From: Nitrospirales bacterium
GTDB lineage: Bacteria > Nitrospirota > Nitrospiria > Nitrospirales > UBA8639
Assembly (NCBI GenBank): GCA_029261295.1
Contig: JAJDBP010000012.1
Location: 1-64,000, forward strand
Direction of reading: 5' to 3'
DNA length: 64,000 bases
The translations under genes and the position numbers were made by a program. Below, in pieces: positions 772-43,087 of this stretch; positions within the stretch are counted from its first letter, which is position 1, and every line of letters begins with the position of its first letter. Below the pieces are notes generated by a model. That model did not search any database and was not told the DNA's origin. It saw nothing but the letters and a program-made list of their open reading frames with translations.

Positions 772-2364
772 ATGCGCCCTCTTCGGGTGACAATAATAGA
801 TTTAGTCACAAAAGGTCCGACAGATTCCTTATATGCCCGTGTGATGAATCAGAATCTCGCGAGTATCATGCCGCAAGTCGTGGGCGTGTGGTGTGAGGAA
901 TTAGGTCATCATGTGCGGTTTATTTGTTATACCGGTCGGGAGGATCTGCAACAGGAATTATTAGAAGAAACCGATATTGTCATCATTGGGTCCTTTACCC
1001 GTTCGGCTTTAACGGCCTATGCCATCAGCAATCTCTTTCGATCTCGTGGGGCGGTGACTGTCTTAGGTGGCCCTCATGCTAGAAGCTATCCTCAAGATTC
1101 TGCCAAATACTTTGATTATGTGGTGGGTTTTACGGATAAACCCCTGATCAAAGACATTCTTTCTGATTGTGCCCCTCATCGGCCACAAGGGCAATATCTT
1201 CAGGCCAAACAACAACCGTTGGAACTGCCCGGAGTCAGGGAACGATGGAAGTTTATTGAGCCCACCATCGATAAGGCTCCAATGTCTTCCTTTAAAATCG
1301 TCCCCATGATAGGGAGCATGGGATGCCCGTATACCTGTGGGTTTTGTGTAGATGCTGAAGTGGATTACCAACCATTGTCATTTGATCAAATTAGTGAAGA
1401 TTTAAAGTTTCTCTTGACTAAATTAAAGCGCCCCATTGTGGCGTGGCATGATCCGAACTTTGGTGTCCGATTTCAAGAATATATGGATGCCATTGATACG
1501 GCCATTCCTCCTAATCGAATCGATTTTATCGCCGAAAGCACGCTCTCGATCTTAACGGAGCCCCATTTGAAACGAATGAAACAGAATGGGTTTCGAGCGA
1601 TTCTTCCGGGTGTTGAGTCGTGGTACGACATGGGAGGAAAATCGAAAACCGGCCGTCAAGTTGGGGAGGAAAAAGTCAAACAAGTCTCTGACCATATTAA
1701 TATGGTGCTGCGGTATATCCCCTATGTGCAGGTGAATTTTGTTTTAGGGTTGGACTCGGAACAAGGTTCAGAGCCCTTTGATTTGACCAAAAAGTTTTTA
1801 GATGCAGCACCAGGGGCCTTCCCAGCCTTTTCCTTGCTGACGGCCTATGGACAATCGGCACCCTATAACTTGACGCTTCAGCAGGATGAGCGGGTGATTC
1901 CCTTTCCGTTTCATTTCTTAGATAACAACCATTCCATGAATGTGAAACCTCTCAATTATTCATGGCCAGAGTTTTACGATCATGTGATCGATATTTCTGA
2001 GCATGCCTTTTCTTGGCCCATGATTGCCAAACGGTTTATGCGCAATCGAGGGATGATTCCTAAATGGTACAACTTGGTGCGGTCTGTTTCGACGGGGGGC
2101 TTTGGTCGGATTAATTACCATAAAAATATACGCGAACGTCTTGATCACAAACAGAGTATCAGGCCGTTTATGGAAGGCGACACCTCAGAATTGCCACCAT
2201 TCTTCCAACGAAAAATCCAAAAGAAATTGGGTCCATTGTGGGAGCTGCTTCCCGAAAATTCGATCATGCATGATCATCAGGCCTATCTGCATGCCACTCC
2301 CCCTTCTACGATCATGCCCCTTCCTCTTGAGCCTCCAGCGGCGTTGGCAGAAGCCTCGGTTTAA
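772..2364 (+). CDS. B12-binding-type radical SAM protein
   Basis: A 530-residue protein starting at ATG 772 behind a good GGAGG ribosome-binding site. The N-terminal 130 or so residues resemble a cobalamin-binding Rossmann domain (DIVIIGSFT, TVLGGPHA). They are followed by a radical SAM domain with the cluster motif C185-x3-C189-x2-C192 (GCPYTCGFC). The family is that of B12-dependent radical SAM enzymes, many of them methyltransferases, but the substrate cannot be told. The gene stands alone between a terminator and a convergent operon; its last 53 bp overlap the 3' end of the sortase gene on the other strand. Confidence 0.8.
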   Translation: MRPLRVTIIDLVTKGPTDSLYARVMNQNLASIMPQVVGVWCEELGHHVRFICYTGREDLQQELLEETDIVIIGSFTRSALTAYAISNLFRSRGAVTVLGGPHARSYPQDSAKYFDYVVGFTDKPLIKDILSDCAPHRPQGQYLQAKQQPLELPGVRERWKFIEPTIDKAPMSSFKIVPMIGSMGCPYTCGFCVDAEVDYQPLSFDQISEDLKFLLTKLKRPIVAWHDPNFGVRFQEYMDAIDTAIPPNRIDFIAESTLSILTEPHLKRMKQNGFRAILPGVESWYDMGGKSKTGRQVGEEKVKQVSDHINMVLRYIPYVQVNFVLGLDSEQGSEPFDLTKKFLDAAPGAFPAFSLLTAYGQSAPYNLTLQQDERVIPFPFHFLDNNHSMNVKPLNYSWPEFYDHVIDISEHAFSWPMIAKRFMRNRGMIPKWYNLVRSVSTGGFGRINYHKNIRERLDHKQSIRPFMEGDTSELPPFFQRKIQKKLGPLWELLPENSIMHDHQAYLHATPPSTIMPLPLEPPAALAEASV

Positions 2365-2992
2365 GCGACAGTTTCCGAGCCGCTAATTTTGCCGTCACGA
2401 CATAGCGTAGCGGCCCTCCTGGTAGTACCGCATCAAATGGATAACAGGTAATGAGTTGTAACATGCCGCCTTCGTGATTCGATGTGAGTGTCACTTCTTG
2501 GCTATCCACCACCGCAGTATTTTCCACACTAAAGTTCAGCCAATTGCCTTGAAGTGTTTGCAGAGTCAGGACATCTCCCACCTGTAAATCTTGAACAAAT
2601 GAAAAATGCGTATCCCGGTGCCCGCTTAGGATAAGGCTCTCGGAGTCTTTGCCAGAAAATTTCCCCTTTCCAACTTTTCCCGGCCCAAAAGCTAGTGATT
2701 GTCCGCTGGCATCGGCCAGAATAATTTGGTTTGTACCCAGTCGAGGAATGGTGAGTTTTCCCACTGGCCAGGTATCCGCCCATGCCCAGGGTTTCACCGG
2801 TTGTTGAGAGGTGAGTGTCTCCTGCCAAGCCTGATGCAACAGCCATTGGGCCGTTACCGCCTTGAGGTGAATCCAGGCTCCCTGCCCAATGAGCCAGCTC
2901 CCTAGACCGAACAAGAGACTCGCAACAATCCACACCATGTGATGCCTTACCCGTGTGCGTGGTGGCGTCGTGACCAGATCCATGTCAGGCAT
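2312..2992 (-). CDS. Class GN sortase (dedicated sortase of the marine proteobacterial type)
   Basis: A 226-residue protein with one N-terminal membrane segment (MVWIVASLLFGLGSWLIG) and a sortase domain. The catalytic residues are visible: His in SGHRDTHF, Cys in LITCYPF and Arg in GPLRYVV. Single-target sortases of this type are known from Gram-negative bacteria and are encoded next to their one substrate. Here the start overlaps the end of the VIT/vWA gene by 46 bp, so the two are translationally coupled. The upstream neighbour set (OmpA-like, VIT/vWA, sortase) supports the family call more than length alone. Confidence 0.88.
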   Translation of the reverse strand: MPDMDLVTTPPRTRVRHHMVWIVASLLFGLGSWLIGQGAWIHLKAVTAQWLLHQAWQETLTSQQPVKPWAWADTWPVGKLTIPRLGTNQIILADASGQSLAFGPGKVGKGKFSGKDSESLILSGHRDTHFSFVQDLQVGDVLTLQTLQGNWLNFSVENTAVVDSQEVTLTSNHEGGMLQLITCYPFDAVLPGGPLRYVVTAKLAARKLSLKPRLLPTPLEAQEEGA

Positions 2993-5043
2993 AACAGCAT
3001 ACTTCCTATGACAAGATACGCGGTGGCTGGTGTGGCGGTTTGCGGCCAGCCAAAAATGGCCTCCTGCTTCATGCCATTTGGTAAGTTGGTTTTCAGTCCG
3101 TGTGTGTGAAGAGGTTGAGCTTCAGGCCTGACCGGTGTCACGTCTACCGCCACAAGGCTGGTATAGCGACTAACCAAATGATGCTTGAGAGCAAGGTCGA
3201 TAATGGATTGTCTGAGCAGGGTTTTGTCTTTCTTTTGTGTCCCTTGATCCATGAGTTGGGCAATCTTTTGCCGCGCCCAATGAACTGCGATTCCGCCTCG
3301 TGATTTTGCATCAATGAGCGATTGAGTCGTCTCCCAAGGCCTGCCTCCATGTTTTCCCGTGATGGTGATCGACGTAGGCAGGGTTGTCGTTCGAAAAGCG
3401 ACAGTTAGAGGTTCGCCGTTATAGAGGTCGGGCAATGGATCAGGAAGAATCTCCGCGATTGTGGAATCTACAGATTGAATGGTGATGTCAGTGAGGGCCG
3501 GGTGTTCCAATTTGAGGAAGAGGTTGTTCATTTTTTCTTGCACCTCGGTGGTCGAGCCAACATAGGTGAAGGTGCCTTTCCCAAATTGTGCGGCCTTTCG
3601 CATAAAGTGCCCATTGGGGGCGGACCCTATGCCTACCGTAAAAAGACGAGTGTTGGCTAATTCTCGTTGGACAAGTGCAAATAGTGCCTCTTCATTGCCG
3701 ACAAGGCCATCGGTCATGAAAATAATTTGCCGTAGCCTGAGGGATTCTTCCGAATCCGAGGGGCGTGTCAGAGCTTGCCTGAGAGCCGGGAGCATTTCTG
3801 TTCCGCCGGTAGCTTGTAATCCCTTTAGATAACGCTGCGCTTCATGAATTCGTGAGCCAGAAGCCTGGCGGGCAATGGGATAGAGGCTATGAGTGACGGA
3901 ATTAAATTGAATAAGGTTGAATGTGTCTTGGGGAGTTAAGCGACTCAGTGCTAATGAGAGTGCGGCTTTGGCTTGTGTCAGTGATTTGCCACCCATCGAC
4001 CCTGAGGTGTCGATGACAAAGACGACTTCTCGTGGAATCGTGATGGTTTTCGAGTCAGAGGAGGTTGGTGGCATGAGTTGCAGAAAGAGAAACGTCTCGC
4101 CCTCGTGTTGTTCGGTAAACACGCTGGCTTGTGGGGTTTCATGGGAAAGGGGTGTCCAGATGAGTTCAAAGTCTCGTTCTGCATAGGTCGAGACATCTTG
4201 AAGGGACACGTGATAGGAGTTGGTCTCTTGTTTGGTCAGTGTGATGGGATGCGTGGGCGATTCAATATTCTGAAGAAGCATGCCCGGAGCCAGATCAATG
4301 TGTAGAGCAATGGGATTGATGAGCCCACGCGAAGGATGTTGCACCGGCGGAGTGATACGTGAGGCATCCGGCACCTGATCGGTATTGGGTGCCCACCCGA
4401 GGCCCTGGGGTGATGAAGAATCTTCTTCTATATCCTGAGGTTGGCCGGGAATGTAGCGCGGCCCCACCACCATCGGAAAACGAAGTGAAAATTGGCCTTG
4501 GTCATACCGCACAACCTCTTGGTACTCAATCTCGATAATAATAGGGGCGTTCGGAGCAATGTTGGCTACAGATGTCGTAAAGATATTCGGACGTTCTTGT
4601 TCTACCAAGCTGGCACGCTGGCCTTTCGCTTTGGCCTTGGCATAGGTCTTTTTGGCTTGTGCCCGTTCTTGAATCTGACCTTCGATGATTTGTTCTCCAA
4701 TCTTCATGCGTAAGTGATCCACGGCGGCTTGATTGGGCAAGGGAAACACATACACCCCTTCCGCCCATTCCTCACTCGGGTTGCTGAATTCTTGAGACAC
4801 CGTGGTACGGGCAATGAGTCCACTAATAGTCATGGTCACCGTCGTATTCAAAAGTGGGGCGGATATTGGATTTTTCCCTGTGGCGGTTTTCAGCAACACG
4901 CCACCCTTGGGTTTTTTGCCCACAGATTCTTGTCGGGGTTCTTGTGTTGTTTGTGCTGCTACAGATGGAAGAGTCAGCCCTCCGATCCAACTGCTCATCA
5001 TGCAACACATCAAGAGAAATGCGTGAGGCCTTCGGGAATTCAT
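2947..5043 (-). CDS. VIT/vWA sortase-target protein (marine_srt_targ type)
   Basis: A 698-residue exported protein with an N-terminal signal peptide (FLLMCCMMSSWIGGLTLPSVAA), a VIT domain (about residues 50-190) and a von Willebrand A domain with the MIDAS motif DTSGS in FVIDTSGSMGG. The C-terminus is a sortase-sorting signal: WPQTATPA, a hydrophobic helix, then RRHHAHG. In known members the motif is written LPQTATPA; Trp replaces the leading Leu here. The start ATG at 5043 has an AAAGGAG site. It is presumably anchored by the overlapping sortase; the ligand of its vWA domain is unknown. Confidence 0.9.
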   Translation of the reverse strand: MNSRRPHAFLLMCCMMSSWIGGLTLPSVAAQTTQEPRQESVGKKPKGGVLLKTATGKNPISAPLLNTTVTMTISGLIARTTVSQEFSNPSEEWAEGVYVFPLPNQAAVDHLRMKIGEQIIEGQIQERAQAKKTYAKAKAKGQRASLVEQERPNIFTTSVANIAPNAPIIIEIEYQEVVRYDQGQFSLRFPMVVGPRYIPGQPQDIEEDSSSPQGLGWAPNTDQVPDASRITPPVQHPSRGLINPIALHIDLAPGMLLQNIESPTHPITLTKQETNSYHVSLQDVSTYAERDFELIWTPLSHETPQASVFTEQHEGETFLFLQLMPPTSSDSKTITIPREVVFVIDTSGSMGGKSLTQAKAALSLALSRLTPQDTFNLIQFNSVTHSLYPIARQASGSRIHEAQRYLKGLQATGGTEMLPALRQALTRPSDSEESLRLRQIIFMTDGLVGNEEALFALVQRELANTRLFTVGIGSAPNGHFMRKAAQFGKGTFTYVGSTTEVQEKMNNLFLKLEHPALTDITIQSVDSTIAEILPDPLPDLYNGEPLTVAFRTTTLPTSITITGKHGGRPWETTQSLIDAKSRGGIAVHWARQKIAQLMDQGTQKKDKTLLRQSIIDLALKHHLVSRYTSLVAVDVTPVRPEAQPLHTHGLKTNLPNGMKQEAIFGWPQTATPATAYLVIGSMLLCLTWIWSRRHHAHG

Positions 5044-5094
5044 AGCAGCTCCTTTATCAATTGAACGCAGTTTTGCTTATACATTCTTGTCATC

Positions 5095-5143
5095 AAAAAA
5101 AGGAAGGCCCAGGCTGATCCTTTGGATAAGGGATCAGCCTGGG
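5095..5143 (-). terminator. Intrinsic terminator after the OmpA-like gene, or processing hairpin within the operon
   Basis: Near-perfect 13-bp arms (CCCAGGCTGATCC at 5108-5120 and GGATCAGCCTGGG at 5131-5143). Read on the minus strand it is followed by a T run (complement of the A run at 5095-5101). It lies between the pdsO-like gene and the VIT/vWA gene, so those two may be separate transcripts or joined by read-through. Confidence 0.8.
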
Positions 5144-5150
5144 AATAGAT

Positions 5151-6029
5151 TTACGGAAGGGAATTGGCGGGAGCGAACTGGTCAACCGCCACGAGTTCTC
5201 CAGGAATCTCTTCCTGGAGGGCGATCTCTTCTTCAGATCCTTTGGTGGGAGCAGAATCCACTATGGGCGGGGTCACTTTAGCCGTGGAATCTTCACGGGC
5301 ATCAGACGTCATGGAAAGGAGACTGTCATCCTGTTCATGACTTGGCTCGCTAAGAAACGCCACATGCGCCCGTCGGTTGTGTTCAAAACAATCTGGGGTT
5401 TGTTCCTGACAGACTGCTCCATCTTTTCCAAAGGATTGCACCTGGATCCGATCTTCAGGAATCCCCAGAGAGACTAAATAGGTTTTCACCGATTCTGCCC
5501 GCTTCAGCCCTAACACTCGATTGTAGGTATCAGGTCCCTGGGCATCGGTATGGCCGTCAATGTGTAGCGTGCCGGTCCATTCTCCTCCCTGAGCCTGGAC
5601 TTTGGTTTTAATCTGGTCTTTGGCTTGATTCGAGAGGACCCACAAATTGAAGCCAAAATGGACATCCATGTCTTCGGTTTCTTGTTGGGCTGTAGGAGAA
5701 GTGGACACCAACTGGAGAGATGGTTCTGTGCTAATCGGAGAGGAGGATTCGCTCGAGAGAGGGATCGCAGGAGAAGGAGTAGGATTGGCAAAAGCCTTGG
5801 ACATTTCAAAATTACTCACCTCCTTTGAGGCCTTTTGGGATGCCGTTGCCACTAAGGGCTCGTCTGCGGAATACATAAAGAGACCTCCGAGCCCAAGCGT
5901 TAAGACGATGAGTCCTCCCGCTAAGAGGGCGATTTCTTTGGTATCCGATTGTTCAACACCCGTCTGTAATGACGGTCGCAGTGGTTTGCCCGCTTCTGAA
6001 AGATTTGGGGTATTCGGTTTTTGATTCAT
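5151..6029 (-). CDS. OmpA-family protein, PdsO-like
   Basis: A 292-residue protein with a short cytoplasmic N-terminus, one membrane anchor (IALLAGGLIVLTLGLGGLFMY), a Ser/Pro-rich linker and an OmpA-like peptidoglycan-binding domain (about residues 120-235). The domain carries the signature HIDGHTDAQGPDTYN and NRRAHVAF. ATG 6029 follows an AAAGGAG site. A dedicated OmpA-family partner (PdsO) is known to accompany the proteobacterial single-target sortase system, and this gene lies directly upstream of the target and sortase genes. The partner kinase and regulator genes (pdsS, pdsR) are not in this window. Confidence 0.82.
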   Translation of the reverse strand: MNQKPNTPNLSEAGKPLRPSLQTGVEQSDTKEIALLAGGLIVLTLGLGGLFMYSADEPLVATASQKASKEVSNFEMSKAFANPTPSPAIPLSSESSSPISTEPSLQLVSTSPTAQQETEDMDVHFGFNLWVLSNQAKDQIKTKVQAQGGEWTGTLHIDGHTDAQGPDTYNRVLGLKRAESVKTYLVSLGIPEDRIQVQSFGKDGAVCQEQTPDCFEHNRRAHVAFLSEPSHEQDDSLLSMTSDAREDSTAKVTPPIVDSAPTKGSEEEIALQEEIPGELVAVDQFAPANSLP

Positions 6030-6452
6030 GCGTGTCTCCTTTGTTTAGCTGTCTGTTAACAATAGGGTTGGGGGATTCCATCTTTTTCTGATTTGTTGCC
6101 TCATCGTTCGCTTACAATGTCCTCACCTCCTTTCCGCGTGGCGTTATGAATGGAATGCACCTATCGCAAAGGACTTGCCAAACGTTGAAACTTAGAAAAT
6201 TCAATAAAATCAATGATTTGAAGAGGCACTGCAGTGGGGATTCGTGCGGGGATTGCGTGGATGCAAGCGGGGATGCGGGGACATTCACGCACTAAAATTG
6301 GATTGTTCTCCCCCGCCTTTGTAGGGCGGGGCTATGGGAGGTAGATTCTTGTAGTTGTTTTACTCTGGCTCGCTATGCTGGCAGTCTCTGGGATGTGGTT
6401 GGGGCTATGTGGCATTCATAACCGATCTCTCGAGCCTAAGTGGTCTTCTGTG
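6030..6452. other. Non-coding stretch with GC-rich repeats and a hairpin
   Basis: No plausible gene. The first 100 bp hold the promoter side of the OmpA-like gene. At about 6235-6290 there is an imperfect G-rich repetition of the word GCGGGGAT. At 6311-6331 a hairpin CCCCGCC/GGCGGGG has no T tract on either strand, so it is not a standard terminator. The character changes here from operon to repeat-rich accessory DNA. Confidence 0.6.
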
Positions 6453-6652
6453 ATGCCGGGGTTCGTCCCGGCAGCCGACCCACTTTTGTTTGGGCAAAAG
6501 TGGGCAAAACCATGTTGGCCGTAGTGTGGCCCTTCGGGTTCCCTGTGCGGTTCGCCAACACCGGCGGCTCGCAAACTCGCTGCGCTCAAACAATGCGCAC
6601 CTTTTCTCCGGTGTTGGCTGCACTGCTCGGCCACACTACGAGGCCAGGGGAA
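6453..6652 (+). repeat. Dispersed 200-bp repeat, copy 1
   Basis: This 200-bp stretch from ATGCCGGGGTTCG to CCAGGGGAA recurs as an inverted, clearly similar copy of equal length at 9729-9928. Inside lies a 119-bp unit (6521-6639) bounded by the inverted repeat GTAGTGTGGCC/GGCCACACTAC. A second nested inverted repeat GCCAACACCGG/CCGGTGTTGGC sits at 6554-6564 and 6608-6618, so the element could fold into a long hairpin. No transposase is present. ORFs called inside it are artefacts of the repeat. Confidence 0.85.
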
Positions 6653-6976: not shown

Positions 6977-7252
6977 ATGAGTGCTAGTAACTTATTGCGC
7001 AACGTAAAGCCGGTTAATCTTCGCGAGGCACGAGGGCAACTGTCGAAATTGATCAGGTCGAAGGAACTTTCTGTCTTCCTCTCCAAGGGTAAACCAGTTT
7101 CGTTCCTTGTGCCCTATGAAGACATGTTGGACCTAGTTGAAACTCTGGATCAATTACAAGATAAAAAACTTCTTCAAGAAATTACACGAGCCCGGAAAGA
7201 ATATGCTCAGGGGAAAGCAGTTTCGGCAGAGCGTCTCCTGACAATTCCGTAA
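6977..7252 (+). CDS. Phd/YefM-family antitoxin, apparently orphan
   Basis: A 91-residue protein beginning MSASNLLRNVKPVNLREARGQ; the segment NLREARGQLSKLI and the following SVFLSKGKPVSFLVPYEDM are typical of Phd/YefM antitoxins, which bind operator DNA and a cognate toxin. The start has a GGAG site at 6964-6967. No toxin gene (Doc, YoeB, PIN or RelE type) is found on either side; repeat DNA follows directly after the stop. It may be a remnant of a pair, a solitary regulator, or may act with a toxin elsewhere. Confidence 0.78.
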   Translation: MSASNLLRNVKPVNLREARGQLSKLIRSKELSVFLSKGKPVSFLVPYEDMLDLVETLDQLQDKKLLQEITRARKEYAQGKAVSAERLLTIP

Positions 7253-7283
7253 AAAAATCCTACCGATTATCAAGAAACGATAG

Positions 7284-7343
7284 ATGCCGGGTTTCGGCCC
7301 GGCAGCCGAGGTCCTTTTGTTTCGGCAAAAGGACCCAAAACCA
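7284..7343 (+). repeat. Dispersed repeat, copy 2 (core only)
   Basis: The core ATGCCGGGTTTCGGCCCGG followed by CAGCCGAGG and the hairpin CCTTTTG/CAAAAGG matches the left part of copy 1. After about 60 bp the similarity to copy 1 is lost. The ORFs 7154-7390 and 7284-7598 in the track are read through it and are not supported as genes. Confidence 0.75.
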
Positions 7344-7601: not shown

Positions 7602-9503
7602 ATGGCCTACATCACAAAGTTTGAAATCGAGAATTTCAAAGGGATCGAAAGCCTTGAGCTAGAAGTCGCAGAAAAGCACAAGTGCCCAGTTGTTACTCTC
7701 GTCGGTCTCAATGAAAGTGGCAAAACGACAATTCTAGAAGCGATATCACATTTCGTCACGGCTGAAGGTACTATTTCGAAGGAACCGGGGAGAAAAAATG
7801 CAGCTAATCTTTTATCTTTGGTCCCGATAGCCAAAAAAGCAAATTTTTCTGGCATCATCGAAATTTCTGCCACCGTAATGATGGAGGATGCGGACAGGAG
7901 AAATGTTGAGAGCAACTTTGATAAAGCTGGTTACATAATCGATAGTGAACAATTACCGAAAAGTTTCACGATTACACGAAAATACTATTTTGCAGAGGGC
8001 GAATATAAAAAATTGACCAATATGTGGGATTTGGCATTCTTTGCGAAAAAAAAAGGTCGAGGGAAGATATTTCGGGAATATGTTCGGCCAAAGGAGGAAG
8101 AAATAAATGCAGGAACCCCTGACCTTTGGCAAAGTTGCGTGGAACTTATTAAAAAATCCTTGCCTACTATAGCTTACTTTCCAATGTTTTTAGTGGATGT
8201 ACCAGATAGAATCTATTTAACACAGTACGAAGATGAACATCCTAGCCAACGTTATTATCGAGAAGTTTTGCAAGATATCTTAGATAGTTTGGATGAGGAC
8301 CTAGACCTAGAGCAACACGTCGTAAAGCGGATTCGTAATTATCAGGAACAGGAGAGTAAGCCAAACTGGTTAACTCTTTTGTGGAGTCGACCCGAGAAAG
8401 GAATGATCGATTCAGTTGTTCAAAAGTTGTCATCAGCTATAAGTCGAGAGGTTATAGGAAGCTGGAAAAATATTTTCAATAGGCCTATTTCGGCAAAAAT
8501 GATCACTATTGATTGGAATGTCGATCTCGAAAAGGACTCTATCCCATACCTTACTTTTGGCATATCAGATGGTGAATCTAAATATGCACTACATGAGAGG
8601 TCATTAGGTTTCCGATGGTTTTTCCTTTTCTTGTTGTTTACACGTTTTAAGTGTGACAAGGAGCGTCCAACGCTCTTTCTATTTGACGAGCCCGCTGCCA
8701 ATTTGCATGCGCGAGCACAAACCGAGTTGTTGATGAGTTTCGGCAGAATAATTGAAAACCGAAATGGAATTATATATTCGACACATAGCGCACATATGAT
8801 CAACCCCCAATGGATACCCGCTGCTCAAATTGTCGAGAACACTGCCATTAATTATGACTCGGATGACGAAATGCTTAGCTTCTCAAGTCCTCCAACTTCC
8901 ATTACAGTGGTTCCCTATCGACGGTTTGCTTCTTTAAACCCTGATCGAAGCAGTTATTTTCAGCCTATCCTAGACAAGCTCGACCACATCTCCCCGAAAA
9001 TTTCTCCAGATGGTCCTGTTCTTGTTACTGAAGGGATCTCCGACTTTCACGCATTTTTGTTCTATTGTTCAGAACTCTTAACAATAAAAGGAATCTCCTT
9101 GCTGCCAGGACTTGGCGATACTCAACATGATAGCCAAATTGCTAATTTGATTGGAATGGGAAGAAACTTCATCGTTGTCCTTGACGATGACCAATCTGGG
9201 AACAGAGCGGCGAAAAGATATCGAGAGAAATGGCTGCTGGACTGTAATCATGTGGCAACATTGGGGGAACTGCATAGTGATGCAGCTGGGAAAAAACTGG
9301 AGACTATTCTTTCGAGCGAAACCCTCAGCGCTATATCAGCACATTTTTCACATACCGGGGCTCCAAAAAAGAAAGAAATCGGCCTGTACTTTTCAGAAGC
9401 AAACGCAGGCTTAATTCAAGACAAGAGTCCTAAGACTGCGGAAATGGTAAAAGATATCCTTAACGAAGCCGTGAAACGAATTTTAAATCAATCGACTAAG
9501 TGA
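7602..9503 (+). CDS. OLD-family ATPase/TOPRIM endonuclease, class 1-like (probable defence gene)
   Basis: A 633-residue protein. The N-terminal ABC-type ATPase has Walker A G35-LNESGKTT, a signature-like ERSLG near 332, Walker B FLFDEP (D362, E363) and the H-loop STHSAHM (about 393-399). The C-terminal TOPRIM domain has the conserved Glu in LVTEGISD (E477) and the acidic LDDDQSG (528-534). This order is that of OLD nucleases, several of which act against phages. No UvrD-like helicase follows, so it is not a Gabija pair. The gene is more AT-rich than its neighbours and lies between inverted repeat copies, which suggests transfer. Confidence 0.85.
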   Translation: MAYITKFEIENFKGIESLELEVAEKHKCPVVTLVGLNESGKTTILEAISHFVTAEGTISKEPGRKNAANLLSLVPIAKKANFSGIIEISATVMMEDADRRNVESNFDKAGYIIDSEQLPKSFTITRKYYFAEGEYKKLTNMWDLAFFAKKKGRGKIFREYVRPKEEEINAGTPDLWQSCVELIKKSLPTIAYFPMFLVDVPDRIYLTQYEDEHPSQRYYREVLQDILDSLDEDLDLEQHVVKRIRNYQEQESKPNWLTLLWSRPEKGMIDSVVQKLSSAISREVIGSWKNIFNRPISAKMITIDWNVDLEKDSIPYLTFGISDGESKYALHERSLGFRWFFLFLLFTRFKCDKERPTLFLFDEPAANLHARAQTELLMSFGRIIENRNGIIYSTHSAHMINPQWIPAAQIVENTAINYDSDDEMLSFSSPPTSITVVPYRRFASLNPDRSSYFQPILDKLDHISPKISPDGPVLVTEGISDFHAFLFYCSELLTIKGISLLPGLGDTQHDSQIANLIGMGRNFIVVLDDDQSGNRAAKRYREKWLLDCNHVATLGELHSDAAGKKLETILSSETLSAISAHFSHTGAPKKKEIGLYFSEANAGLIQDKSPKTAEMVKDILNEAVKRILNQSTK

Positions 9504-9728: not shown

Positions 9729-9928
9729 TTCCCCTGGCCTGGTGGTGTGGCCGAGCAGTGCAGGCGACACCGGAGAAAAGGCGCGCATTGTTTGAGCGTA
9801 GCGAGTTTGCACGCCGCCGGTGTCGGCGAACCGCACAGGGGACCCGAAGGGCCACACTACGGTCAACATGGCTTTGACTACTTTGGCCGAAACCAAAGTC
9901 GTTCGGCTGCCGGGACGAACCCCGGCAT
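9729..9928 (-). repeat. Dispersed 200-bp repeat, copy 3 (inverted relative to copy 1)
   Basis: The reverse complement reads ATGCCGGGGTTCGTCCCGG onward to CCAGGGGAA and aligns along its whole length with copy 1, with the same total length (200 bp) and the same 119-bp inner unit (9742-9860). It forms the right border of a roughly 3.5-kb segment holding the antitoxin and the OLD nuclease. Confidence 0.85.
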
Positions 9929-40886: not shown

Positions 40887-41003
40887 GATATATCGTTAAG
40901 TATACTGCACTGATTCATTATAGATATTTTATGAGTAGACATTTATCATGGCGTGGGTTCGCCCTTCTCCCTTCTAACCTCTAGGTGGTACCATTTCATT
41001 ACT

Positions 41004-41678
41004 ATGCGTATTCTAGTTGTTGAAGATGAACCAAAAGTGGCGTCATTTATCCGACGAGCATTAGAAGAAGAAAGTTATGCCGTCGATGTCTGTGCCGATG
41101 GAGCCGGTGGATTAGATTGGGCACAAACGGTCAATTACGACCTTATTGTTTTAGATTTAATGCTGCCAGGGTTGCCAGGGGTGGAGGTATTGAAACGTGC
41201 ACGTGCGGCTGGCGTGAAGACCCCGGTCATGATTCTGACGGCACGTTCAGAGGTGGATCAACGCGTTAAAGGTCTTGATGCGGGGGCAGATGATTATTTG
41301 ACCAAACCATTTGCGATTGAAGAATTGCTGGCCAGGGCACGAGCCCTCCTTCGTCGTTCCGGTGGTGCTCCCTCTGGAATTTTGCAAGTTGATGATGTTG
41401 TCCTGAATCCAGTGACGCGAGAGGTGACTTGTGGCGAGCAGCGGTTAGAATTTACGACTAAGGAATATGCACTTTTAGAATATCTCATGCGAAATGCTGG
41501 TCGAGTGTTGACACGCTCGATGATTGCGGAACATGTCTGGGATTTAGATTTTGATACCTTCACAAATGTGATTGATGTGTATATTAGCTATTTGCGCAAT
41601 AAGATCGATAAAGGGCGTGAACGGAGTCTCATTCAAACTATTAGGGGGAGTGGATATATGATGAGGTCTGATGGGTGA
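41004..41678 (+). CDS. OmpR/PhoB-family response regulator
   Basis: Start at ATG 41004 (the track start 40953 adds residues not found in the family): 224 residues. Receiver domain with ILVVEDEPKVASFI, phospho-Asp in LIVLDLMLPGLPGVE and Lys in DYLTKPF; winged-helix domain with LEYLMRNAGRVLTRSMIAEHVW and IRGSGYMMR. The kinase gene overlaps its stop by 4 bp, so it is a co-translated pair. Related to CopR/CusR-type regulators, but the signal is not shown. Confidence 0.93.
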   Translation: MRILVVEDEPKVASFIRRALEEESYAVDVCADGAGGLDWAQTVNYDLIVLDLMLPGLPGVEVLKRARAAGVKTPVMILTARSEVDQRVKGLDAGADDYLTKPFAIEELLARARALLRRSGGAPSGILQVDDVVLNPVTREVTCGEQRLEFTTKEYALLEYLMRNAGRVLTRSMIAEHVWDLDFDTFTNVIDVYISYLRNKIDKGRERSLIQTIRGSGYMMRSDG

Positions 41679-43087
41679 CTAATACCTCGATCCGCGTTCG
41701 TCTCACTCTTTGGTACGGCTCAGCTTTAGCTCTTATTCTGCTCCTTTTTGCCGTCGCGTTATATTTGGTGATGTCACGGGCGCTTCGAGAACAAGTAGAT
41801 GCATCGCTTGATGAAGCAGCTGCGGTGGCCATCCGAACTCTCGGAGAACATCGATTTGGGCCTTTCCTCATTTTCGAAGATCTTTCTCAAGAATTCCCAG
41901 AGTTGGCTTTATTAGATAAATTTTTCCAAATATTTGGGCCTGCCGGGCAAGTTACGATTCAATCCTCCAATATTCAAAGTCGAGAAATTCCGCTGAGTCA
42001 AACAGCATTTCGGGCTTCGCTTGAGGGAAAATCTACTTTCGAATCAGCTCAATTTGCGAAGGGTGTCTCTCTTCGGTTGCTTTCGGTTCCTATTCGTCAG
42101 GATGAGCAACTCGTCAATATTTTGCGTGTAGGAACATCATTGAGGCCATCTGATCGCATGTTACGACGATTATTGGTTGGGTTGTATATTGCGTCTCCGG
42201 TCGCATTGCTTGTGTCCTTAATGGGGGGATGGTTTTTGGCAGGAAGAGCCTTACGACCCGTGCATGCGATCACCCAAGCTGCTCGTCGTATCACCGCAGG
42301 TGACTGGAGCCAACGAATTCTGACGCCGCAGTCGAATGATGAAATTGGACAGCTAGCCTCAACCTTTAACGATATGATTGGTCGATTAGAAGTGTCATTT
42401 AAGCAAATTCGCCAATTTAGTGCTGATGCCTCTCATGAGTTGCGTACACCCCTAACCATTACCAAAGGTGAAACCGAATTAGCATTACGCCGTCCTCGTC
42501 AGGCGGAAGATTACCGAGTGGTATTAGAAAGTAATTTAGAAGAGATTGATCGTATGAGTCGTATCGTGGATGAATTACTTTTTTTATCCCGTGCTGATCT
42601 AGGGGAAATTAAGTTGAAAATGCTTCCCGTGCAATTAGATGATCTCTTTCGCGAAATTCACCAGCAGGCTGCAGTGTTAGGAAAAGACCGCTCGATTCAA
42701 ACCGTGATGACAAAAGTTGAACCAGTTGTGGTTGAAGGTGATGATCTGCGGTTACGTGAATTATTATTGAATCTCGTTGACAACGCCGTGAAATATTCTC
42801 AAACAGGACAAACCGTAGAGTTGGCCTTGGTCGTCGTTGGGAGTCAGGCCAAGATTATTGTTCAGGATTATGGGATTGGTATTGCCTCAGAGAGTCATGA
42901 TCGGGTCTTCGATCGTTTTTACCGTACAGACGAAGCTCGTGCCCATGCTGCCAAAGGAACGGGCTTGGGATTGGCTATTTGTAAGTGGATTGTTGAGGTC
43001 CATCATGGAAGCATTGAGCTTCAAAGTACTGTTCAGGGTGGATCCTGTTTTACAGTTTTCCTACCATTGTCTTCAGTTAAAGTCTGA
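41675..43087 (+). CDS. HAMP-domain sensor histidine kinase
   Basis: A 470-residue membrane kinase with GTG start in a GTGA overlap with the regulator. Two membrane helices (about 12-32 and 165-190) flank a periplasmic sensor domain; HAMP follows (RALRPVHAITQAARRITAGDWS), then the H-box FSADASHELRTPLTI, N-box LNLVDNAVKYS and GTGLGLAICKWIVEVHHG. The arrangement matches heavy-metal-sensor-type kinases, but no efflux genes lie nearby. Confidence 0.93.
   Translation: MTNTSIRVRLTLWYGSALALILLLFAVALYLVMSRALREQVDASLDEAAAVAIRTLGEHRFGPFLIFEDLSQEFPELALLDKFFQIFGPAGQVTIQSSNIQSREIPLSQTAFRASLEGKSTFESAQFAKGVSLRLLSVPIRQDEQLVNILRVGTSLRPSDRMLRRLLVGLYIASPVALLVSLMGGWFLAGRALRPVHAITQAARRITAGDWSQRILTPQSNDEIGQLASTFNDMIGRLEVSFKQIRQFSADASHELRTPLTITKGETELALRRPRQAEDYRVVLESNLEEIDRMSRIVDELLFLSRADLGEIKLKMLPVQLDDLFREIHQQAAVLGKDRSIQTVMTKVEPVVVEGDDLRLRELLLNLVDNAVKYSQTGQTVELALVVVGSQAKIIVQDYGIGIASESHDRVFDRFYRTDEARAHAAKGTGLGLAICKWIVEVHHGSIELQSTVQGGSCFTVFLPLSSVKV

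Follow-up and report, generated by a model that had tools for sequence, protein, structure and literature searches.

A class GN sortase with a probable single substrate in Nitrospirales, its variant sorting signals and a candidate sigma-54 activator

Results and Discussion

We analysed a stretch of 64,000 nucleotides (nt) from a Nitrospirales bacterium (assembly GCA_029261295.1, contig JAJDBP010000012.1, positions 1 to 64,000), hereafter the window, which carries a cassette of three genes for an OmpA-domain protein, a VIT/vWA protein ending in a sorting signal, and a class GN sortase. As a whole, the evidence is probably best explained by a system in which one class GN enzyme serves one substrate, under the control of a sigma-54 promoter and a membrane protein with a CHASE2 domain. 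We propose more tentatively, and with slightly less than even confidence, that its regulation in Nitrospirales is unlike that of every described sortase system, in that a one-protein transmembrane CHASE2 activator, devoted to a single promoter, controls the OmpA protein together with the sortase pair, and that the sorting signal was recoded twice, to WPQTA and to L[AS]xG[AG]T, of which the second lacks both Pro and Thr.

One sortase and one probable substrate

The first-pass annotation of the window had proposed a class GN sortase and a VIT/vWA target in one strand order. Both genes were confirmed (Table 1), and their products pass the curated models for this enzyme and its substrate: the sortase scored 201.6 bits against TIGR03784 (cut-off 158.25) and matched PF04203 (5e-23), and the target scored 775.3 bits against TIGR03788 (cut-off 551.65), with matches to PF08487 (VIT) and PF00092 (vWA). 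The two genes overlap by 46 nt, and a convergent B12/radical-SAM gene (772-2364) overlaps the sortase gene by 53 nt. The C-terminus of the target, FGWPQTATPATAYLVIGSMLLCLTWIWSRRHHAHG, consists of the motif, a hydrophobic stretch and a basic tail (SRRHHAHG). A cassette identical to that of the window is present in genome G231 of the same genus (CAKZPV010000032.1).

The third gene had been annotated as PdsO-like. An OmpA-domain gene is in place, its product scoring 47 bits against PF00691, but its score with the curated PdsO model (TIGR03789) was 42.3 bits, where 152.2 are required, in a match confined to the OmpA part, and the five Nitrospirales OmpA proteins tested reached 42-57 bits with this model, all below the cut-off. 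Several genomes also keep the gene while lacking sortase and target (see below).

Table 1. Features of the cassette, its upstream region and the candidate activator. Positions are those of the window, except for the activator (genome:contig:positions).
Feature	Position	Strand	Description
Class GN sortase, 226 aa	2312..2992	minus	N-terminal membrane helix; catalytic H125, C183, R196
Sortase target, 698 aa	2947..5043	minus	Signal peptide, VIT 65-174, vWA 340-502, metal ion-dependent adhesion site (MIDAS) DTSGS, C-terminal sorting signal
Sorting motif WPQTATPA, target residues 666-673	3025..3048	minus	Precedes hydrophobic helix and basic tail
Hairpin resembling a terminator with T-run, between OmpA and target genes	5093..5143	minus	Stem -25.9 kcal/mol
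OmpA-domain protein, 292 aa	5151..6029	minus	One N-terminal membrane helix; PdsO-like, under PdsO cut-off; PF00691
Shine-Dalgarno-like leader element GGAAAGGAGGTGA	6123..6135	minus	About 100 nt ahead of OmpA start codon
-24/-12 sigma-54 promoter TGGCAAGTCCTTTGCG	6165..6180	minus	RpoN encoded in genome
Activator-site remnant GCGTGAATGTCCCCGC	6275..6290	minus	Centre 103 nt upstream of -24 GG; located where relatives have the perfect palindrome GCGGGGnTAnCCCCGC
Candidate activator, 863 aa	G000:C13:53219-55810		Membrane protein: CHASE2, coiled coil, sigma-54 AAA+ and Fis-type domains

The genome containing the window (4.06 Mb in 38 contigs; phylum Nitrospirota) encodes one class GN sortase. When a profile of the sorting signal was compared with this genome, the target alone matched (E 1e-20), the runner-up (0.06) being matched over the helix only. 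A VIT/vWA paralogue of 834 aa (L002; G000:C2:480791-482575) scores right at the TIGR03788 cut-off, and was rejected as a second substrate because its C-terminus lacks a sorting signal. Several genomes of the sister family (f2; see below) have lost the target gene, and their sortase is either truncated or interrupted, as expected if the enzyme has no other substrate. The loci concerned are L058, L078 and L079-L083, and at L078 the reading frames for OmpA protein and sortase are seemingly fused.

The His/Cys/Arg centre is invariant across all 51 aligned sortases, including those from genera with LAAGAT-type signals. An AlphaFold model of the sortase (mean predicted local distance difference test score 69, moderate confidence) retrieved sortases in Foldseek, with a best E of 3e-10. 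The nearest solved structure by sequence was 2ln7, SrtD of Bacillus anthracis, with 30% identity in the fold alignment; the PDB sequence matches to the sortase included no class GN structure.

Distribution and ancestry of the cassette

We use Nitrospirales for the host's order as defined by genome grouping, f1 for the host's own family and f2 for its sister family. The phylum was represented by 396 genomes, and 58 of these gave a sortase match. The host's order accounts for 56 of the 58, all within these two families. In f1, the cassette is present in 21 of 49 genomes, which belong to the host's own genus and to two sister genera (g5 and g170), and the gene order OmpA - target - sortase is kept in the Nitrospirales regions examined.

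The first-pass annotation had reasoned that, with a host outside Proteobacteria, the system must have been transferred or be more widespread, and had suggested a phylogeny of sortase and target. The host does lie outside Proteobacteria and the system is widespread; recent transfer is the part that the trees speak against. In the target tree, computed with the sorting signal removed, Nitrospirales form one clade (support 99/96), f1 forms another within it (98/95), and both families are largely resolved. The sortase tree agrees weakly (Nitrospirales clade 70/76). Sequences from outside the order, including proteobacterial plasmid records, were few, and sampling there is thin. The monophyly of the Nitrospirales targets indicates old vertical inheritance, reaching back within the order at least as far as the divergence of f1 from f2, and the cassette is a shared trait of much of the order. 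Recent horizontal transfer from Proteobacteria would agree with the description of the family as proteobacterial, and with a cassette G+C content (0.51) slightly over that of the neighbourhood (about 0.46); however, the single target clade, the resolved families, and a regulatory module and activator common to the whole order make it very improbable.

Variation of the sorting signal

The sorting signal of the window target, WPQTATPA followed by a helix and a basic tail, had been singled out as a variant. It is present, and has Trp where the canonical LPxT has Leu. This Trp is found throughout the genus, in 15 of 15 targets (WPQTAT in 12, and WPQTAS, WPKTAT and WAQTAT in one each). By comparison, the first residue is Leu in all 39 readable targets of f2, one further target being frame-broken, and signals of members outside Nitrospirales include LPQTAT and LPKTAT, but also FPATAT (L015) and YPQTSL (L013). 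Since Phe and Tyr are thus found at this position in proteobacterial members, Trp alone is a mild variant, and the deviation is more modest than first described.

The targets of the two sister genera, g5 and g170, show a further variant: they carry LAAGAT, LSAGAT, LARGAT or LAAGGT, that is, L[AS]xG[AG]T in 6 of 6 cases. This signal is more radical than WPQTA, for it replaces Pro as well as the Thr that precedes the presumed scissile bond. In class E sortases, a beta3/beta4 loop reads the Ala/Pro position of the LAXTG signal (PMC5148588). As in g5 and g170, Ala replaces Pro in that signal; unlike it, the g5 and g170 signals have Gly instead of Thr, and they are served by a different sortase class.

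The sortases of the host's genus differ from others in the stretch corresponding to this loop (residues 105-120, which immediately precede the catalytic His): about half have a one-residue insertion, and position 106 is mostly Lys or Gln where others have His or Tyr. These changes may answer the Trp of the signal. We envisage that a presumed ancestral LPxTA gave rise to WPQTA in the host's genus and to L[AS]xG[AG]T in the sister genera, because a signal read by one enzyme in one substrate would be free to drift. The variants could instead reflect decay of a system that is out of use in the own family, a view consistent with the loss of Pro and Thr in g5 and g170, the one WAQTAT signal and the broken sortases in part of f2. 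We consider decay improbable, though, given that the variants are near-uniform inside genera, that reading frames and catalytic triad are intact in nearly all cases, and that these sortases score about as well as others.

A sigma-54 module ahead of the OmpA gene

Three elements precede the OmpA gene in fixed order in 37 of 37 Nitrospirales loci: a palindrome near GCGGGGnTAnCCCCGC, a GGC-N7-TTGC box, and a leader element, AAGGAGG or AAGGGGG, located 46-62 nt past the GG. The box has the -24 GG and -12 GC of sigma-54 promoters at the correct spacing in the window as well as in all 37 relatives, and the window's genome contains the gene for RpoN. The distance from the centre of the palindrome to the -24 GG is 102-103 nt in f1 and 112-115 nt in f2 (105 nt in one decayed f2 locus); the two families therefore differ by about one helical turn, as expected if an activator must face the polymerase. 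In 7 of 7 genomes having the perfect form, the exact palindrome is single-copy and always located at the OmpA-cassette locus. In g5, it reads GCGTGG...CCACGC, with both arms altered together.

The leader element GGAAAGGAGGTGA, which we take to be complementary to the usual 16S 3' end, occurs once in the 4.06-Mb genome, and its core is present in all 37 relatives. We rejected it as the ribosome site of a hidden gene, because only 4 of 32 loci have a start codon behind it, which is hence not conserved. By analogy, the element (GGAAAGGAGG) probably protects the mRNA: the STAB-SD of cry3A (PMC4113751) is likewise a Shine-Dalgarno-like leader element that does not direct translation, although here the host is Gram-negative and we infer the stabilising role.

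A candidate activator with a CHASE2 domain

A membrane protein encoded elsewhere in the genome (Table 1) combines the domains of a sensor and of a sigma-54 activator, and its occurrence follows that of the cassette. Each of the 48 f2 genomes in which the sortase was matched has an orthologue (fragmentary in one), as do 19 of the 21 f1 genomes that carry the cassette (in some, as fragments at contig ends). At an ortholog level of 1000 bits or more, a threshold picked after the scores were seen, none of 22 cassette-less f1 genomes of other genera contained it; six metagenome-assembled genomes (MAGs) of the own genus without a detected cassette, most of them incomplete, also carry it. In 41 f2 genomes, activator gene and cassette share a contig; in 40 of these, the activator gene lies upstream of the cassette, on the same strand and within 30 kb. 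In several f2 genomes, G145 and G251 among them, it adjoins the promoter. Its DNA-recognition motif WDRSTVTQRLKG is nearly invariant, paralleling the near-invariant palindrome. The activator of the window's genome has Gly for Ser in this motif, alongside a degenerate palindrome, a coincidence that may be due to chance.

The first-pass annotation had also remarked that no pdsS/pdsR pair accompanies the cassette. For PdsS this was borne out across the whole genome, where the best of 39 kinase matches reached 107 bits (cut-off 612); for PdsR, no response-regulator gene stands beside the cassette in the window, and the genome was not searched with TIGR03787. As a peculiarity, the absence does not stand: five annotated alphaproteobacterial plasmid loci contain target and sortase only, without PdsS, PdsR or PdsO annotation, indicating that a missing pair is not unusual. 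Farther along the window (40953-43087) are an OmpR-type regulator and a heavy-metal-type sensor kinase, unrelated to the sortase; we rejected this pair as PdsS/PdsR because it is 35 kb distant and its kinase passes a heavy-metal sensor family model. Separately, an Acidobacteriota-labelled MAG (L016) has a class GN system beside a PdsR-like regulator (263 versus 336 bits) and a kinase, both below the curated cut-offs.

Several observations weigh against control of the whole cassette by the CHASE2 protein and against a recoded signal. In the own family f1, the activator is unlinked to the cassette, and about two dozen f2 genomes hold the activator without a sortase, suggesting that it belongs to the OmpA gene first. 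The window palindrome is degenerate, yet in position, and the hairpin resembling a terminator behind the OmpA gene was found in the window's genome only; together, they suggest that transcription from the sigma-54 promoter may there serve chiefly the OmpA gene. The L[AS]xG[AG]T signal might reflect relaxed constraint rather than recoding. Finally, PrsR scores over its cut-off in the genome and is another possible activator of the module, but the palindrome is unique to the cassette locus, and the system is followed more closely by the CHASE2 protein.

The association of activator and OmpA gene was also apparent in 12 sortase-negative f2 genomes that we examined around the activator. Seven had the OmpA gene with the full module, target and sortase not being within reach; G169 showed the module and the start of the OmpA gene at the edge of the stretch, and G108 the OmpA gene, the module not being detected. 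Neither OmpA gene nor module was found within reach of the activator in the remaining three, G147, G127 and G214, nor, outside the 12, on a short contig of G018. The persistence of OmpA gene and module after loss of sortase and target indicates that activator and OmpA gene form a unit that is older than the sortase/target pair or more essential, and that this pair is the part that gets lost. The OmpA protein could thus be the true sigma-54 output and have its own function, with target and sortase riding downstream through separate or read-through expression and sharing location more than function. This retention, the hairpin of the window and the lack of a curated PdsO match would all agree with such an arrangement. 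Nevertheless, every complete Nitrospirales sortase/target region examined has the OmpA gene in front, and most relatives show intergenic gaps of 11-121 nt with no terminator; we regard it as a real possibility, if not one that we favour.

Proposed mechanism

Our preferred reading remains that of one sortase serving one substrate, under common sigma-54/CHASE2 control. The signal peptide would export the VIT/vWA protein, which its C-terminal helix would hold in the inner membrane. Using its Cys/His/Arg centre, the membrane-anchored sortase would cut between WPQT and ATPA and join the target to an amine acceptor, most likely the meso-diaminopimelate of lipid II or peptidoglycan. Next to the target, peptidoglycan would also be bound by the OmpA-domain protein, predicted to be anchored in the inner membrane. 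RpoN holoenzyme would act at the -24/-12 promoter ahead of the OmpA gene, and the CHASE2-AAA+-Fis membrane protein would bind the palindrome, which lies about 103 nt upstream in the own family and about 114 nt upstream in the sister family; GCGGGGCTATCCCCGC and GCGTGGATAGCCACGC are putative target sequences of the Fis domain. A one-protein sensor-activator would in this way replace PdsS/PdsR.

We know of no established acceptor for class GN sortases in Gram-negative bacteria. The sortase might merely release its target by hydrolysis, or link it to an acceptor other than peptidoglycan, such as an amine of the outer envelope or another protein; in keeping with this, the VIT/vWA family also bears GlyGly-CTERM and PEP-CTERM signals (PMC3237569). 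The OmpA domain encoded next door is, however, a peptidoglycan-binding fold and points to the wall, and we consider release or a different acceptor less likely.

Neighbouring features of the window

Upstream of the module, an inverted repeat of about 200 nt (6453-6652 and 9729-9928, 91% alike, with a shorter third copy at 7283-7343) flanks an AAA-ATPase stretch, and looks like a small non-coding mobile element or one of the repetitive extragenic palindromic (REP) type. Between the repeats, positions 7602-9503 encode an AAA_15 ATPase of the OLD/AriA/GajA type (PADLOC AriA, 94 bits), possibly an anti-phage ATPase-nuclease. It is preceded by a small antitoxin-like open reading frame (6977-7252) that matches no Pfam or PADLOC family.

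Comparison with known systems

The literature searched presents class GN sortases as a dedicated system of Gram-negative bacteria, and contained no account of sortases in Nitrospira, nor of the sigma-54 module described here. The enzyme and substrate families are known; what is added is their occurrence in this order, the variants of the signal, the regulatory module and a candidate for its activator. Among these, the module, the activator and the stronger LAAGAT variant of the sister genera go beyond the first-pass annotation. The cassette is a trait shared in an order of nitrite oxidisers, in which the series LPxTA, WPQTA and L[AS]xG[AG]T allows matched tests of enzyme and substrate specificity, and the promoter module, with a named candidate activator, opens a way to the inducing signal and to the Gram-negative acceptor.

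The closest counterpart is the proteobacterial dedicated system (TIGR03784, TIGR03788), with which the Nitrospirales cassette shares adjacent genes, matches to the curated models, one target per genome and a tripartite C-terminal signal. It differs from that system, with its PdsS (TIGR03785), PdsR (TIGR03787) and PdsO (TIGR03789), in its Nitrospirota host, the absence of PdsS, an OmpA protein under the PdsO cut-off, signals with W or L[AS]xG, a sigma-54 module and a CHASE2 candidate activator. The class D sortase SrtD of B. anthracis (2ln7) is the closest solved relative, but is Gram-positive and has other substrates and another context. Genes for PEP-CTERM proteins are under sigma-54, as predicted via PrsK/PrsR (PMC1569441, PMC9850573), and this exosortase system resembles the Nitrospirales one in envelope sorting, a -24/-12 promoter recognised by RpoN and an upstream activator site. 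Its enzyme is unrelated, however, its activator is two-component and its targets are many, and its motif 1 lies about 63 nt ahead of motif 2, versus 103 or 114 nt in Nitrospirales.

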